Assembly: GCA_902777325.1 (NCBI GenBank)
Contig: CACYTH010000006.1
Coordinates: forward strand, 1-64,000
Origin: an uncultured Coriobacteriaceae bacterium
Lineage (GTDB): Bacteria; Actinomycetota; Coriobacteriia; Coriobacteriales; Atopobiaceae
Direction of reading: 5' to 3'
Length of the DNA stretch: 64,000 nucleotides
Shown here piece by piece: positions 22,854 to 57,622 of the stretch (positions are counted from its first letter, which is position 1; every line of letters starts with the position of its first letter). The notes beneath the pieces were generated by a model. That model made no database searches. It was not told the origin of the DNA and saw nothing but the letters and a program-made list of their open reading frames with translations. Both the position numbers and the translations under genes were made by a program.

Positions 22854-22865
22854 CGTACCGACATA

Positions 22866-22992
22866 GTTTCAGGGCGGGGTGAGATTCCCCACTGGCGGTA
22901 TCGGGACGCGTGTCCCCAAGCCCGCGAACCGCAAAAGGCGGCCGACCTGGTGAGACTCCAGGGCCAACGGTTACAGTCCGGATGGGAGAAAC
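22866..22992 (+). promoter_or_regulatory. FMN riboswitch (RFN element)
   Basis: The conserved RFN core is directly recognisable: TCAGGGCGGGGTGAGATTCC near 22868, the GGCGGT stretch, AGCCCGCGA, a GGTGAGACTCCAGGGCC segment and the closing CAGTCCGGATGGGAGA at 22975-22988. It binds FMN and shuts off riboflavin synthesis or uptake genes when FMN is plentiful. The ribU ATG is about 13 bp downstream and the final GGAG is close to it, so control is probably at translation initiation. I see no separate U-run terminator. Confidence 0.95.
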
Positions 22993-23004
22993 GGAGGCGC
23001 CATT

Positions 23005-23583
23005 ATGGCCACCATCTCAAATTCACGTCATGACACCCACGCTACCACCGCCTCTGGCGGCTGGAGCACCAAGCGCATCGCCACGACCGCGCTCTTCTGC
23101 GCCGTCGCGGCCATCGCCACGCTCTTCATCGAGTTCCCGATCCTGCCGGGCGTGACCTTCCTCAAGTACGACCCCTCCGCCATCGTCGCGCTCGTCGCCG
23201 GCTTCGCCTTTGGCCCCTCGACCGGCGTGATCGTCTCGGCGCTGCCCTACCTCGTGCACCTCGCCACCCAGAGCGGCGTCTACGGCGCCTTCATGGCCAT
23301 CGTGGCCACGCTCTCGCTGGTGCTGCCCGCCTCGCTGGTCTACCAGCGCAACACCACCTTCAAGGGCGCCGTCACGGGCCTCGTCATCGGCGCCGTGGTC
23401 TGCCTGGCGGTGACCATCGCAGCCAATATCGTGGTGACCCCGCTCTACATGGGCGCGCCGCGCGAGACGGTCATCGGCATGATCGTGCCGGTGCTCCTGC
23501 CCTTCAACGCCATCAAGGTCGCGCTCAACTGCGTGATCACGGCCCTGGTCTACAAGCCGCTCTCCAAGGCCCTCCAGGACTAG
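23005..23583 (+). CDS. ribU: Riboflavin transporter substrate-binding subunit (ECF S-component)
   Basis: A 192-residue membrane protein with five to six helices. It matches RibU, with the diagnostic segment FLKYDPSAIVALVAGFAFGP. It binds extracellular riboflavin and works with the EcfA-EcfA-EcfT motor encoded directly behind it. The FMN riboswitch upstream confirms the substrate. The hydrophilic first ~20 residues precede helix 1 at about 25-45. The ATP-binding gene follows after 15 bp. Confidence 0.96.
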   Translation: MATISNSRHDTHATTASGGWSTKRIATTALFCAVAAIATLFIEFPILPGVTFLKYDPSAIVALVAGFAFGPSTGVIVSALPYLVHLATQSGVYGAFMAIVATLSLVLPASLVYQRNTTFKGAVTGLVIGAVVCLAVTIAANIVVTPLYMGAPRETVIGMIVPVLLPFNAIKVALNCVITALVYKPLSKALQD

Positions 23584-23598
23584 CCCGGACACCGCCCA

Positions 23599-25494
23599 AT
23601 GGACCGGCCCCTGCTCTCACTTGACCACGTAACGCTTCGCTACGAGCACGGCATATGCGCCCTCGACGATGTCAGCCTGGACATCGCCGCAGGTGAGCGC
23701 ATATGCGTGCTCGGCCCCAACGGCTCGGGAAAGTCGACGCTCGCCTCCGTCCTCTGCGGGCTTCTGGCCCCTGACGAGGGGGCCGTAGACCTTCTGGGCG
23801 AGCGCGTGTTTGGCGAGCAGGGCATCGACTTCGATGCGTACCGGCGCGTCCGGCGGCGCCTTGGCCTGGTGTTCCAGAACCCCGACGACCAGATCGTGAC
23901 CTCGGTCGTCGAAGAGGACGTCGCCTTCGGGCCCGAGAACCTGGGCGTCCCCTCGTCTCAGATTGGCGCGCGCGTGGCGCGGGAGCTCCACCGCGTGGCG
24001 CTCGACCGCTATGCCAAGGCCGACCCGAACAATCTCTCCGGCGGGCAGAAGCAGCGCGTGGCCATCGCCGGCGCGCTCGCCATGGAGCCCGAGGTGCTTG
24101 TGCTCGACGAGCCGGGCGCCCTGCTCGACGTGCGCGGACGGCGCGGCATCATGCGCGTGATGGACCAGCTGCACGAGGCCGGCACGACCGTCGTGCACGT
24201 GACCCACTTCATGGAGGAGGCCCTGGCAGCAGACCGCGTGGTGGTGCTCGCCAAGGGTCGCCTCGTGCTCGAGGGCACGCCCTCGGAGGTCTTCTCCCAC
24301 GGCGACGAGCTGACCGAGCTCGGGCTCGAGGAACCCTTCTGCGCACGCCTTGCCGAGGCGCTCCGCGCAAGGGGCGTCGACATCCCCTGGACCTGTGACG
24401 AGGACGAGCTTCTGGCATCGCTCTCGCACGCGCCCGCGGCGGGGACCGACCCCGAGGACCCTCGCGAGGCGGATTGCTCGACGGTGTCTGGCGGGAGCGA
24501 GGACCCAAGCGAGCGAAGCGAGCGCATCCGCAGCTGCCAGGCATCGTCGAGCAATCGCTCTTGCCGAGCCGGGTCCTCGGGGTCGGTCCCCGCCGCGGGC
24601 GCGTGCGAGAGCGCCATCCAGGCGACGGAGCTCTCCTACTCCTATGGTGACACCGACGCTCGAGAGGCACGCCACCCAGCCCTCGACGCCGTCAGCTTCG
24701 GCATCCCGCGCGGATCGTTTACCACCATCGTCGGACAGACGGGGTCGGGCAAGTCCACGCTGCTGCGGCTGCTCTGCGCCCTGGAGACCCCTGATGCGGG
24801 ACGCCTTATGGTGGAGGGCATCGACACCTCCGACCGCAGGCGCAGACGCCAGCTCCATGGCCGCATCGGTTACGTGATGCAGCATCCCGAGCGTCAGCTC
24901 TTTGCCGAGACCGTGCTCGAGGACGTGGCGTACGGGCCCACCAACCTGCGCCTTCCGGCAGACGAGGTCGAGCGGCGCTGCGCAAGCGCACTCGCGCGCG
25001 TGGGGCTGACCGGCCGAGAGCAGTCCTCGCCCTTCCATCTCTCAGGAGGCCAGCAGCGCCTCTGCGCACTGGCGGGCATCCTCGCCATGGAGCCCGACGT
25101 GCTCGTGCTCGACGAGCCGATGGCAGGTCTCGACCCGCATGGCAGGGCCCAGCTTCGCGACATCATCGCAAGCATCAACGCACAGGGCACCACCGTCATC
25201 CAGGTGACCCACTCCATGAACGACGCCGCCACGTCACAGCAGGTCATCGTGCTCAACGAGGGCAACCTGCTCATGCAGGGGGCCCCTGGGGAGGTCTTCT
25301 CGGCAGACACCTTCGACGTTCTGCACAAAAGCGGACTGGGCCTGCCCGATGCCCTCGGTTGGGCGCTTCGCCTCCAGGAGGCGGGCGTTACGGGGCTTGG
25401 CTCTCCCCTCACGCTCGCAGCCCTGGCAGACACCCTTGCTGCTGGCGCGTCACAGACAGCGGAGCCTGGGGAGGTGAGCGTCCGTGGCCTTTAG
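23599..25494 (+). CDS. ecfA: Fused ECF transporter ATPase (EcfA1-EcfA2)
   Basis: A 631-residue protein with two complete ABC domains, usually two genes. Domain 1 has Walker A GPNGSGKS (39-46), signature LSGGQ (146-150) and Walker B VLVLDEP. Domain 2 has GQTGSGKS (379-386), LSGGQ (481-485) and VLVLDEP. In domain 1 the usual DEPT is DEPG. Together they power ECF-type vitamin uptake with EcfT. The linker (about residues 274-339) is Ser/Arg/Pro-rich, matches no ABC sequence and is encoded by a 195-bp near-perfect inverted repeat. It starts at an ATG 15 bp after ribU and overlaps ecfT by 11 bp. Confidence 0.93.
   Translation: MDRPLLSLDHVTLRYEHGICALDDVSLDIAAGERICVLGPNGSGKSTLASVLCGLLAPDEGAVDLLGERVFGEQGIDFDAYRRVRRRLGLVFQNPDDQIVTSVVEEDVAFGPENLGVPSSQIGARVARELHRVALDRYAKADPNNLSGGQKQRVAIAGALAMEPEVLVLDEPGALLDVRGRRGIMRVMDQLHEAGTTVVHVTHFMEEALAADRVVVLAKGRLVLEGTPSEVFSHGDELTELGLEEPFCARLAEALRARGVDIPWTCDEDELLASLSHAPAAGTDPEDPREADCSTVSGGSEDPSERSERIRSCQASSSNRSCRAGSSGSVPAAGACESAIQATELSYSYGDTDAREARHPALDAVSFGIPRGSFTTIVGQTGSGKSTLLRLLCALETPDAGRLMVEGIDTSDRRRRRQLHGRIGYVMQHPERQLFAETVLEDVAYGPTNLRLPADEVERRCASALARVGLTGREQSSPFHLSGGQQRLCALAGILAMEPDVLVLDEPMAGLDPHGRAQLRDIIASINAQGTTVIQVTHSMNDAATSQQVIVLNEGNLLMQGAPGEVFSADTFDVLHKSGLGLPDALGWALRLQEAGVTGLGSPLTLAALADTLAAGASQTAEPGEVSVRGL
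24419..24613. repeat. 195-bp palindromic element inside the ecfA linker
   Basis: Outer arms of 43 bp (24419-24461 and 24571-24613) are perfect complements. Inner arms of 21 bp (24472-24492 and 24536-24556) differ at two positions, both of which become G-U pairs in the sense RNA. The element is exactly 65 codons, carries no stop in the reading frame, and on the opposite strand also encodes the peptide SHAPAAGTDPEDP found in the sense product. It joins the two ATPase domains. Confidence 0.9.
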
Positions 25495-26284
25495 GATCTC
25501 CCTTGGCAGCTACGTGCCCGCAGACTCCGTCCTCCACCGGCTCGACCCGCGCAGCAAGATCGTCTGCGGGCTGGCCATCATGGTGTCAGTCTTCTTCATA
25601 CGCACGCCCCTGCAGCTCGTGTTTGGCTGGGCCGTCGCGCTTGCGCTGGTGCTGCTGTCGCACCTGCCCGCCGGCAAGGTGCTGAGCTCGATCAGGCCCG
25701 TCATCATGGTGCTGCTCGTGCTCTCCGTCTTCAACCTGCTGCTGGTAGACACTGGCAGCACGCTTGTGGCGGTGGGTCCGCTGCGCATCACCACCGGTGG
25801 CCTCTGGGCGGCCGTCAACTACAGCCTGCGCCTGGTGGTCGCGGTCGTCGCGGCGACGCTCATCCTGCTCACCACCACGCCCACCCAGCTAACCGACGCC
25901 TTCGACGCGCTGATGTCGCCGCTGTCGCGCATCGGCCTGCCGGGCCACGAGATCGCCATGGTCTTCTCGCTCATGCTGCGCTTCATCCCCACCATCGCCG
26001 ACGAGGCCTCGGCCATCCTCGACGCCCAGACCGCTCGCGGAGGCGCGCTGGCAGAGGGCTCGCTCGTCGACAGGGTGCGCTCGGTGATACCCATCGTGAT
26101 CGCGCTGCTCGCCAGCTCGCTGCGCCATGCCAACGGCCTCTCGCGCGCACTCGACGCCCGCTGCTACGAGGGCGGGGCGACGCGCAGCCACTGGCACCCG
26201 CTCGAGCTGCATGCCCGAGACGGGGTTGCCGTGGCGTTTACCTGCGTGTATGTGATAGCTCTGCTTATGCTGGGCAGCCTGTAG
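25484..26284 (+). CDS. ecfT: ECF transporter transmembrane subunit
   Basis: A 266-residue integral membrane protein, the scaffold that couples the ATPases to S-components. It has the two Ala-Arg motifs of the coupling helices (QTARGGAL near residue 186 and LDARCYEGG near 228). The N-terminal DPRSK motif is typical of EcfT. The start is GTG at 25484 behind GGGGAGGTGA, overlapping the ecfA stop by 11 bp. It is the last gene of the riboswitch-controlled operon, so the whole transporter motor appears to be under FMN control. Confidence 0.95.
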   Translation: MAFRISLGSYVPADSVLHRLDPRSKIVCGLAIMVSVFFIRTPLQLVFGWAVALALVLLSHLPAGKVLSSIRPVIMVLLVLSVFNLLLVDTGSTLVAVGPLRITTGGLWAAVNYSLRLVVAVVAATLILLTTTPTQLTDAFDALMSPLSRIGLPGHEIAMVFSLMLRFIPTIADEASAILDAQTARGGALAEGSLVDRVRSVIPIVIALLASSLRHANGLSRALDARCYEGGATRSHWHPLELHARDGVAVAFTCVYVIALLMLGSL

Positions 26285-38208: not shown

Positions 38209-40230
38209 ATGAGCCTCAGCTCACAGCAACAAGTCCTGACCGACACGCTCGACGCACTGGCGCGCTACGTCAACCGTCGCCACCGCCTCGTAAGGGAGGA
38301 CCCGAATCAAACCGATGAGGAACACATGCTCCGACAGCACCTGGTGCTGCGTTACCTTTGGCAGCACACTGGCCTTTTGGAGAGCTTCGTCCAGCAAAAC
38401 CCCGAGCACCTGGACGCGCCCCACCTCTCTGCCGCACGCGACCTCCAAGGCGTCCTGTATGGGTCGATCTACGTCGAGGAGCAGGGGAAGGATACCCTCA
38501 CCCTGCTGCATGACACGGGCGTCTACCTGGTGAGCACGCCCCCGGACATGGAGCTTCCCAACACGGATGAGGTGATTGAGCTGCGCTGTGCGTTGGTTCC
38601 GTACATGGGCGCCATCGTCGCGTTGCCGCCTCTTGCGGTCTTGGGCACTGTTCCCACCTCCTTTGCCTGTCGCCTGCACGAGAGGCTGACCGCACGTGGG
38701 GACGAGAAGCCCACCAGCGACGGACGCGTGCTGTATGAGCGCGCCCGCGTCTGGCAGAAGAGACGTGAGGCGCAGGAGGCTCGTCGCTCCACCAACGGCC
38801 AGGCGTGCGCCCCTGGCTATCACCAGGGTCCGCTGACTGGCCTTGCCGGGAAGGAGCGCCTTGCCAGGCTCCGCGAGCACAGCGATGCGATGGCGCTTTC
38901 CGACGGCTCCTATCGGCAGTCCATGGAGGCAAGGTCCATCGAGGTCAAGGAGCTGCCCGTCACGCTCGAGGAGGCTCTCGACCTGCTCGACGACGACTGG
39001 CTCGACAACATCGCCTGCATGTTTATGGGAGTTGACGAGATGCCCGACCTTCCTCATGGGCAGCTCGCCCGATGGCTCGCCAAGCAGATGCACTACCAGA
39101 AGAGCGATCTGGAGTTTGCCCTGCTCTGGTGCGAGCAGGCGCAGTTCGACCTCATGCGGCACCTCATGTTTACCAACCCCTACTCGCTCGACGGGATGGC
39201 ACCCTCGGAGTCGCACGGCCTCTACCCGCTCGAACCGCAGATCTTCTTCTTCCGCGAGAAGGGGTCGCTGCTCGCCTGGATGCCCCCTGAGGTCGCCTCC
39301 CTCATGTCGCAGGTAGACGTCGAAGCCATAGCACGTGCGCGCGAGCGCCTGCGTCTCGCCGCGGCAAGCGCGTCGGGCATGGCGACGATGTGCGGCATCG
39401 TCAGCATGTCCGAGGCCTACGACCTGTACCGACGCGCCGTGGATGACCCGCTCGACCGCGACCAGTACGAGACGGCCCTCTCGTCGCTCGCCTCCTGCGC
39501 GTCGCGCGACGGGTTTGCCCTCTGGCAGCATGACGGCACCGAGTACGTCATCTCAGTCGACATATCCGACGAGAGCGCCTTGGCGCGCGTTGCGCGCGAG
39601 TGCTATGCCGACCGCCTCACAACCCCCTGCTCCGACGGCACGGACGACAGCCCCAAGGTCCTCGAGCTGACGGTCGAGGACGAGCAGGACTTCTCGCAGC
39701 GCGTCTCCCAGAAGGAGGCCGAGCTCCAGCGCCTGCGGCTGTCCCTCATGCGGGCCAAGGACGACTGCGCCGCGCACGAGCTGCCTGCCAGCATGCTCGA
39801 CAGCAGCCCCATACAGGCCCTGCTCGAGACCAAGGCCCTGCGCGACCTGCGCGCCTTCGTCGACCGGCACATCCCCGACAACGAGGACGAGTGGGAGTTC
39901 GCCGACCTCTTCGTTCGCTCGGTGGCCGTGTCTGTCGTGCTCATGAACGAGAGCTACAACGAGACCATGGACCTCATCAGACTCTATGGAATGCTAGGCT
40001 GCGAGGGCACGCGGTTCCCGGACACCCTTGGTCGCCTTCTGACCAATGCCTCGAATGCGCTGCCGCGCTGGCAGCACAACGGCTGGTCCCTCGAGGAGCT
40101 CACCGAGCACCTGACCGGCCGAAGGCGCTTCTTTGGGCCTGACGGCAGGGAGATAGCCGTTGCCGCAGGCGAGCCCTGCCCCTGTGGAAGCGGGAAGACC
40201 TACGAGCTCTGCTGCGGAAACGTGGCATAA
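38209..40230 (+). CDS. Unknown protein with C-terminal SEC-C zinc motif
   Basis: A 673-residue soluble protein whose last ~20 residues are a SEC-C motif (EPCPCGSGKTYELCCG), a small zinc-binding tail known from SecA and from many unrelated proteins. The first ~650 residues resemble nothing I recognise; they are acidic and helical, with a possible coiled coil around residues 490-515. The ATG at 38209 has GAAGGGGG upstream. It lies behind the helicase terminator with its own leader, so it may or may not belong to the TerB/BrxD cluster. The gene is intact. Confidence 0.8.
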   Translation: MSLSSQQQVLTDTLDALARYVNRRHRLVREDPNQTDEEHMLRQHLVLRYLWQHTGLLESFVQQNPEHLDAPHLSAARDLQGVLYGSIYVEEQGKDTLTLLHDTGVYLVSTPPDMELPNTDEVIELRCALVPYMGAIVALPPLAVLGTVPTSFACRLHERLTARGDEKPTSDGRVLYERARVWQKRREAQEARRSTNGQACAPGYHQGPLTGLAGKERLARLREHSDAMALSDGSYRQSMEARSIEVKELPVTLEEALDLLDDDWLDNIACMFMGVDEMPDLPHGQLARWLAKQMHYQKSDLEFALLWCEQAQFDLMRHLMFTNPYSLDGMAPSESHGLYPLEPQIFFFREKGSLLAWMPPEVASLMSQVDVEAIARARERLRLAAASASGMATMCGIVSMSEAYDLYRRAVDDPLDRDQYETALSSLASCASRDGFALWQHDGTEYVISVDISDESALARVARECYADRLTTPCSDGTDDSPKVLELTVEDEQDFSQRVSQKEAELQRLRLSLMRAKDDCAAHELPASMLDSSPIQALLETKALRDLRAFVDRHIPDNEDEWEFADLFVRSVAVSVVLMNESYNETMDLIRLYGMLGCEGTRFPDTLGRLLTNASNALPRWQHNGWSLEELTEHLTGRRRFFGPDGREIAVAAGEPCPCGSGKTYELCCGNVA

Positions 40231-47084: not shown

Positions 47085-47163
47085 GGGTGGGACAGGGGAC
47101 GTGCCTGGTGTCCCACCTTGATCGAGTCAAGGTGGGACACCAGGCACGTCCCCTGTCCCACCC
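47085..47163. repeat. Long palindrome, GGGACAGGGGACGTGCC family
   Basis: Perfect 37-bp arms (47085-47121 and 47127-47163) around a 5-nt loop. The inner arm GGGACAGGGGACGTGCCTGG continues into TGTCCCAC. About 30 bp of this core is identical to that of the palindrome at 57321-57471. Confidence 0.92.
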
Positions 47164-57246: not shown

Positions 57247-57622
57247 GGGCTGAAGCCGCACCTATGCGCTCTCCAGGGGCACGCGACGCGCCCTTGGAGA
57301 GCGCTTTTGTGGGACGGGGGGACGGGATGCGACAGGCGGGTGGGACAGGGGACTGGGACAGGGGACGTGCCTGGTGTCCCACTTCGGCTTCGCAGAGTGG
57401 GACACCAGGCACGTCCCCTGTCCCAGTCCCCTGTCCCAGTCCCCTGTCCCACCCGCCTGTCGCATCCCGTCGCACCTGTCGCATCCCGTCGCACCCCATC
57501 ACACGTCTGTCCGAGCTCTTGGAAGGCGCTTTTTGTTCGCCTGCACATGGTCTGTGCGCAGAGCGCCCCCTAGAGTACTTCTTGATATGACACCCGCATC
57601 TGCAAGCCCCGAAAGGACCCCC
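57247..57622. repeat. Repeat-filled intergenic region before the MFS gene
   Basis: No gene in 376 bp. An inverted repeat directly after buk (GCGCTCTCCAGGG at 57268 with CCTTGGAGAGCGC near 57291) followed by TTTTG looks like the pta-buk terminator. Most of the rest is the palindrome at 57321-57471 and short GTCGCATCCC repeats to about 57500. The MFS leader occupies the last ~100 bp. Confidence 0.7.
57321..57471. repeat. Long palindrome with tandem 13-bp units
   Basis: Left arm 57321-57383 and right arm 57396-57471 are complementary except that the right arm has one extra 13-bp unit (GTCCCCTGTCCCA; three copies against two). The core GGGACAGGGGACGTGCCTGG is shared with 47085-47163. Confidence 0.92.

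Follow-up and report, generated by a model that had tools for sequence, protein, structure and literature searches.

The ecfA locus and its palindrome

The window, by which we mean the whole stretch of 64,000 nucleotides analysed here (contig CACYTH010000006.1 of an uncultured Coriobacteriaceae bacterium, genome G000 in this study), carries an ECF transporter operon led by an FMN riboswitch, in which a fused ecfA gene is placed between an S-component-like and an EcfT-like gene:

22861..22997, + strand: FMN riboswitch heading the ECF transporter operon (Rfam RF00050, 104.6 bits)
23005..23583, + strand: ECF S-component-like gene (weak TIGR04518 match, under cut-off)
23599..25494, + strand: fused ecfA1-ecfA2 gene, 631 aa (ORF; TIGR04520 at residues 7-275, TIGR04521 at residues 340-613)
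25484..26284, + strand: EcfT-like gene (TIGR02454, E=1e-24, under curated cut-off)

Judged from the riboswitch, the substrate of the S-component-like protein is probably riboflavin. Domain profiles place ECF_ATPase_1 at residues 7-275 and ECF_ATPase_2 at residues 340-613 of EcfA, and the gap between them (residues 276-339) is entirely filled, in frame, by a palindrome that spans codons 274-339. A first-pass annotation of this DNA had read a 195-bp inverted repeat at 24419-24613 as the in-frame linker of two ABC ATPase domains; the repeat, with 43-nt outer arms that are 100% complementary and imperfect inner arms, was borne out, and it fits the domain ends at 275 and 340. The parts of the hairpin are as follows:

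24412..24621, + strand: whole hairpin with small gaps (gapped pairing; RNA fold)
24419..24461, + strand: left outer arm, sequence specific to this copy, 43/43 complementary to the right arm
24462..24471, + strand: left side of the asymmetric internal loop, 10 nt unpaired, same position as the loop of the hairpin family described below
24472..24499, + strand: left inner arm, 28 nt, 82% complementary to 24529-24556; the inner stem covaries in the hairpin family
24489..24538, + strand: conserved apex GGCGGGAGCGAGGACC..AGCGAGCGAAGCGAGCG..CCGCAGCTGCC, 94-96% identity over ~49 nt to dispersed copies in genomes G016 and G012
24518..24604, + strand: 87 bp (29 codons) absent from the closest relative, G002; alignment ungapped on both sides, flanked by GCGAG direct repeats
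24529..24556, + strand: right inner arm, 28 nt, 82% complementary to 24472-24499
24557..24570, + strand: right side of the asymmetric internal loop, GCTCTTGCCGAGC, which fits the hairpin-family motif GCGYTCTTGCCCGAG
24571..24613, + strand: right outer arm, 43/43 complementary to the left arm

The RNA fold of 24413-24619 reaches -179.6 kcal/mol (z = -15.6), and 0 of 200 shuffled sequences folded as well. All inner mismatches had been described as G-U pairs; this holds for three of them, but a G.G and an A.A stand near the apex, and an unmatched 10-nt/14-nt internal loop separates the outer from the inner arms. That the peptide SHAPAAGTDPEDP is encoded on both strands is correct and is an automatic consequence of the palindrome.

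The linker peptide (residues 274-338) includes ...APAAGTDPEDPR. AlphaFold gives pLDDT <50 at residues 279-335, which are thus predicted to be disordered, and mostly ~90 in both ATPase domains. From the sequence, a 631-residue EcfA would be made and would be working.

A dispersed family of hairpins

BLAST returned a match in another genome at E=5e-16 (96% over 49 nt), and matches of ~80-96% identity to the apex were found at many places in genomes of the same genus. The dispersed copies that were fetched are all hairpins, sharing the ~50-nt apex and the asymmetric internal loop, and among 19 aligned copies both sides have changed at 16 of 31 stem pairs. A covariance model (R2) built with the window and two near-duplicate copies left out finds the window hairpin with 101.9 bits over all 116 positions. 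The window hairpin is a member of this dispersed family.

Model searches of six congeners gave 52, 50, 20, 13, 12 and 11 copies per genome, the copy-rich genomes including G007 (52), G010 (50) and G015 (13), of which G007 and G010 are incomplete drafts. At the level of the taxonomic family the model matches in 44 of 140 genomes and at that of the order in 76 of 397 genomes, spread over 23 of 123 genera, many of these genomes being draft MAGs; genus g107 of family f2 forms a second centre. Both a search of the window's own genome and the model search found no second copy there. A weak match to the model lies at window positions 38817-38936 (12.9-13.6 bits, E 0.18-1.5) and is possibly a chance match or a decayed copy. 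Rfam held no match to the hairpin above the gathering score, only sub-threshold miRNA hairpin matches, and a literature search on Coriobacteriia and palindromic repeats found the family nowhere described.

The hairpins are mostly 165-310 bp long with abrupt ends, and nearly all are intergenic, many of them no more than tens of nucleotides from a stop codon. In-gene copies are few: among ~60 copies with context there are only the window copy and two orthologous copies in a gene for a TerB_N/TerB_C protein, where the element (L343 in G113 and L344 in G112, two species of genus g28) lies in frame and antisense to the gene and scores 47-55 bits. Three g28 congeners have a short linker and no element in this gene. 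In-frame copies are thus found in two unrelated genes, ecfA and the TerB-domain gene. The lengths of 23 of 84 copies are multiples of three, which is no bias, and for this reason the in-frame cases look like those insertions that survived, not like insertions made to fit the frame. The earlier suggestion of a mobile palindromic element within the gene, comparable in principle to the Rickettsia palindromic elements (RPEs), is supported by the dispersed family, the leave-one-out model and the second in-frame gene. The proposed search for the element in this and related genomes likewise bore fruit, with one copy here and many dispersed copies in relatives.

EcfA fusion and linkers in relatives

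EcfA was found in all of 100 related genomes searched, and within the family it is mostly a single frame of ~580-650 aa; 78 distinct fused EcfA ORFs were gathered for linker comparison. The premise that ecfA1 and ecfA2 are normally separate does not apply, since one fused frame is usual in Atopobiaceae. In G012, G005, G015 and G016 the fused EcfA has a short, unrelated linker and no hairpin. Because relatives are fused without the palindrome, the palindrome did not create the fusion; of the two roles first proposed for it, creation or decoration, the comparison of sequences argues for the second, with a fusion that predates the palindrome and an element that decorated a disordered linker. A family copy in G012, which lacks a linker hairpin, lies ~0.9 kb upstream of ecfA (L240, G012:C1:114976-115092).

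The EcfA of G002 is 88% identical in protein to that of the window. Its gene aligns ungapped up to 24517, is without 24518-24604, an in-frame deletion, and then resumes alignment, so that its linker retains the left half only. As this half includes half of the family apex, the likeliest reading of G002 is that it descends from the same insertion by deletion. In the shared linker half, 13 non-synonymous and 6 synonymous-only codon changes separate the two in 51 codons, as against 19 and 59, respectively, in 255 codons of domain 1, which points to relaxed protein constraint on the linker. Conservation of the peptide with synonymous changes that break the palindrome, which would have spoken for an ordinary linker, is not what the comparison with G002 shows, the changes in the shared half being mostly non-synonymous. 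A weak family match in the EcfA linker of G009 (11.7-12.4 bits) may mean that the ecfA insertion is older than the common ancestor of G000 and G002.

Palindromes were found in 12 of 78 EcfA linkers compared with 2 of 311 control windows (Fisher p=1.3e-7, a value that overstates independence since the linkers are partly kin). Olsenella and other genera carry unrelated in-frame palindromes of varied lengths, up to ~212 bp, in their EcfA linkers (loci L083, L081, L084, L087, L069, L113, L093, L094 and L091). A joint query made from the linkers of L083, L081, L087 and L069 gave 45, 105, 123 and 5 matches in their four genomes, and these counts indicate that at least three of the four are copies of dispersed repeats. 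The EcfA linker thus appears as a recurrent landing place for palindromes.

Probable turnover of the element

The single copy in the window's own genome means that movement has to be read from relatives. Between a hydrolase and an ABC-ATPase gene, G003 and G015 carry the hairpin and G000 and G002 lack it; a second site is occupied in G015 and G016 and also in G009, where the copy points the other way. Independent insertions at the compared sites are likely from these patterns, although the sites compared between species have diverged too far to tell such insertions fully apart from ancient vertical inheritance followed by loss. We infer from such occupied and empty sites that the element moves. 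Insertion into a pre-existing long hairpin was considered and dropped: there is none at the empty site of this genome, and G002 has one of 12 bp only.

No transposase or target-site duplication was recognised, and the ends of ~100 copies showed no shared motif by eye. A RAYT as mobiliser was rejected for want of correlation; no Y1_Tnp (RAYT) gene was found in the copy-rich genomes G007, G010 and G015, the first two of them incomplete drafts.

Outer arms and their upkeep

The outer arms of 20 copies in G003 are unrelated to each other (8.9 vs 8.6 for shuffled sequences), and despite this each is near-perfectly complementary to its own partner. They have no match elsewhere in the G003 genome; capture of arms from elsewhere in the genome was ruled out in G003. 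Related copies in G010 differ by ~15-25% from one another, while the two arms within a copy are 96-100% identical in L252, L257, L262 and L263, and 86% identical in L265. Divergence between copies together with identity within them means that the arms change together. Six G010 copies (L252, L257, L262, L263, L265 and L270) share a GAGTCAGTTACCG...TTTTTGACTCA module in their outer arms, which may be a separate repeat or an element end in that genome.

Selection on RNA pairing would tolerate G.U more than A.C. Across the family the outer-arm mismatches comprise 43 G.T and 52 A.C, and this absence of strand bias led us to reject RNA-level selection on the outer arms; the proposal that G-U pairs keep the RNA fold intact is accordingly unsupported for the family. 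The whole-arm count is 197 G.T against 131 A.C, a figure that includes the shared inner sequence, so that copies are not independent. The outer-arm balance fits DNA template switching better than RNA selection. Template switching homogenises the arms of inverted repeats and can create hairpins (PMC8794818, PMC8604942), and by analogy it would be what keeps the arms paired in this family.

Origin of the ecfA linker

We consider it highly probable that a member of a dispersed, non-coding family of RPE-like palindromic elements, found in this order of Coriobacteriales-type Actinomycetota, landed in frame in the linker of an already fused EcfA. The insertion into this disordered linker between EcfA1 and EcfA2 would have occurred in an ancestor shared by this species and the relative closest to it, and the copy would have persisted as its length and frame leave translation uninterrupted and the linker is tolerant of sequence. 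The apex and internal loop are conserved in the family, presumably through recognition by some factor, whereas the arms are free in sequence yet held complementary as DNA, for which replication template switching within the hairpin is the most likely cause.

An unlikely alternative is that only a short core inserts and then copies adjacent host DNA in inverted form, which would make the outer arms duplicated target. The drop in conservation between copies beyond the internal loop in G010 and G007, with outer arms specific to each copy, agrees with such target capture, as do the G003 outer arms found nowhere else in their genome. On the other hand, no empty site matching one arm was found among the sites compared, and the outer arms of some related G010 copies can still be aligned with one another and have changed together since, so that homogenisation after insertion takes place in any case.

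We hold it to be quite improbable that the hairpin is a functional RNA that works between EcfA1 and EcfA2 as a terminator, as a stabiliser or in the control of translation, with arms that covary under RNA selection. The very stable fold, the covarying inner stem, the three G.U pairs among the inner-arm mismatches of the window and the frequent position of family copies directly after stop codons would all suit an RNA function. They are set against outer arms without an excess of G.T over A.C, sites occupied in some species and empty in others, a copy in the opposite orientation in G009 and an in-frame TerB copy that is antisense to its gene. The element as a terminator itself is unsupported at one site, where an ordinary intrinsic terminator precedes it.

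A local inverted duplication, in which one foldback replication event copied the left linker half into the right with no mobile element, was suggested by the ungapped alignment of G002 to the left half without exactly 87 bp of the right half, beside GCGAG microhomology, but we dropped it in its simple form once the apex matched dispersed copies, and it is very doubtful given that the left half in both G002 and the window holds half of the family apex and that the hairpin as a whole matches copies dispersed in other genomes, which have its apex and its internal loop.

Relation to known palindromic elements

The insertion of a family copy into an EcfA linker has its closest counterpart in the RPEs, dispersed palindromes of 100-150 bp that occur between genes and in frame inside unrelated genes, with different palindromes near one another in orthologues, and that are also known from Wolbachia (PMC10969869, PMC3767692). 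The present family resembles them as a dispersed palindrome with up to ~50 copies per congener (one here), in frame in unrelated genes. Its host belongs to a different phylum, however, and the likeness rests on behaviour, so that we set the family beside the RPEs by description. Its hairpins are longer (~165-310 bp), combine a conserved apex with copy-specific arms and are seldom within genes; no description of copy-specific arms was found for RPEs in the literature, and nothing points to a conserved peptide encoded by the family.

REP/RAYT systems also consist of intergenic palindromes, often near gene ends, but the REP unit measures 20-40 bp (PMC3733652) compared with 165-310 bp for most hairpins here (~190 bp copies), and the copy-rich genomes revealed no Y1_Tnp. 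MITEs such as ERIC are likewise small, non-autonomous inverted-repeat elements in many copies and sometimes make in-frame fusions (PMC10969869); in this family the ends are copy-specific, and neither a common terminal sequence nor a target-site duplication nor an autonomous partner was recognised. Mitochondria of Nematomorpha contain long perfect inverted repeats inside translated genes, for which upkeep by template switching has been proposed (PMC6649704). Those lie in conserved protein and form no dispersed family, unlike the linker described here, which is predicted to be disordered. Template-switch mutation at quasi-palindromes is for its part a mutational process and not an element, and accounts for the upkeep of the arms but not for dispersal.

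The title of Ogata et al. 2002, as cited in PMC6649704, presents in-gene palindromic repeats as a feature of Rickettsia. We lean, by a little, towards the wider view that order-wide mobile hairpins with a constrained apex and arms rewritten by template switching, together with other palindromes, repeatedly colonise disordered protein linkers, which would make this a second bacterial lineage besides Rickettsia/Wolbachia that builds protein from palindromes. An independent lineage would allow a general test of whether repeat DNA turns into new protein in linkers. Arms that are specific to each copy and co-evolve offer many natural replicates in which DNA template switching can be weighed against selection on RNA. 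They also advise caution, as covariation alone is no proof of a functional RNA: this family covaries strongly without a G-U excess in its outer arms.

Two further long, near-perfect palindromes in the window, a 37-bp perfect hairpin at 47085-47163 and one with nested 51-59-bp arms at 57316-57495, share GGGTGGGACAGGGGAC and GTGCCTGGTGTCCCAC and form a second family of palindromic repeats in this genome.
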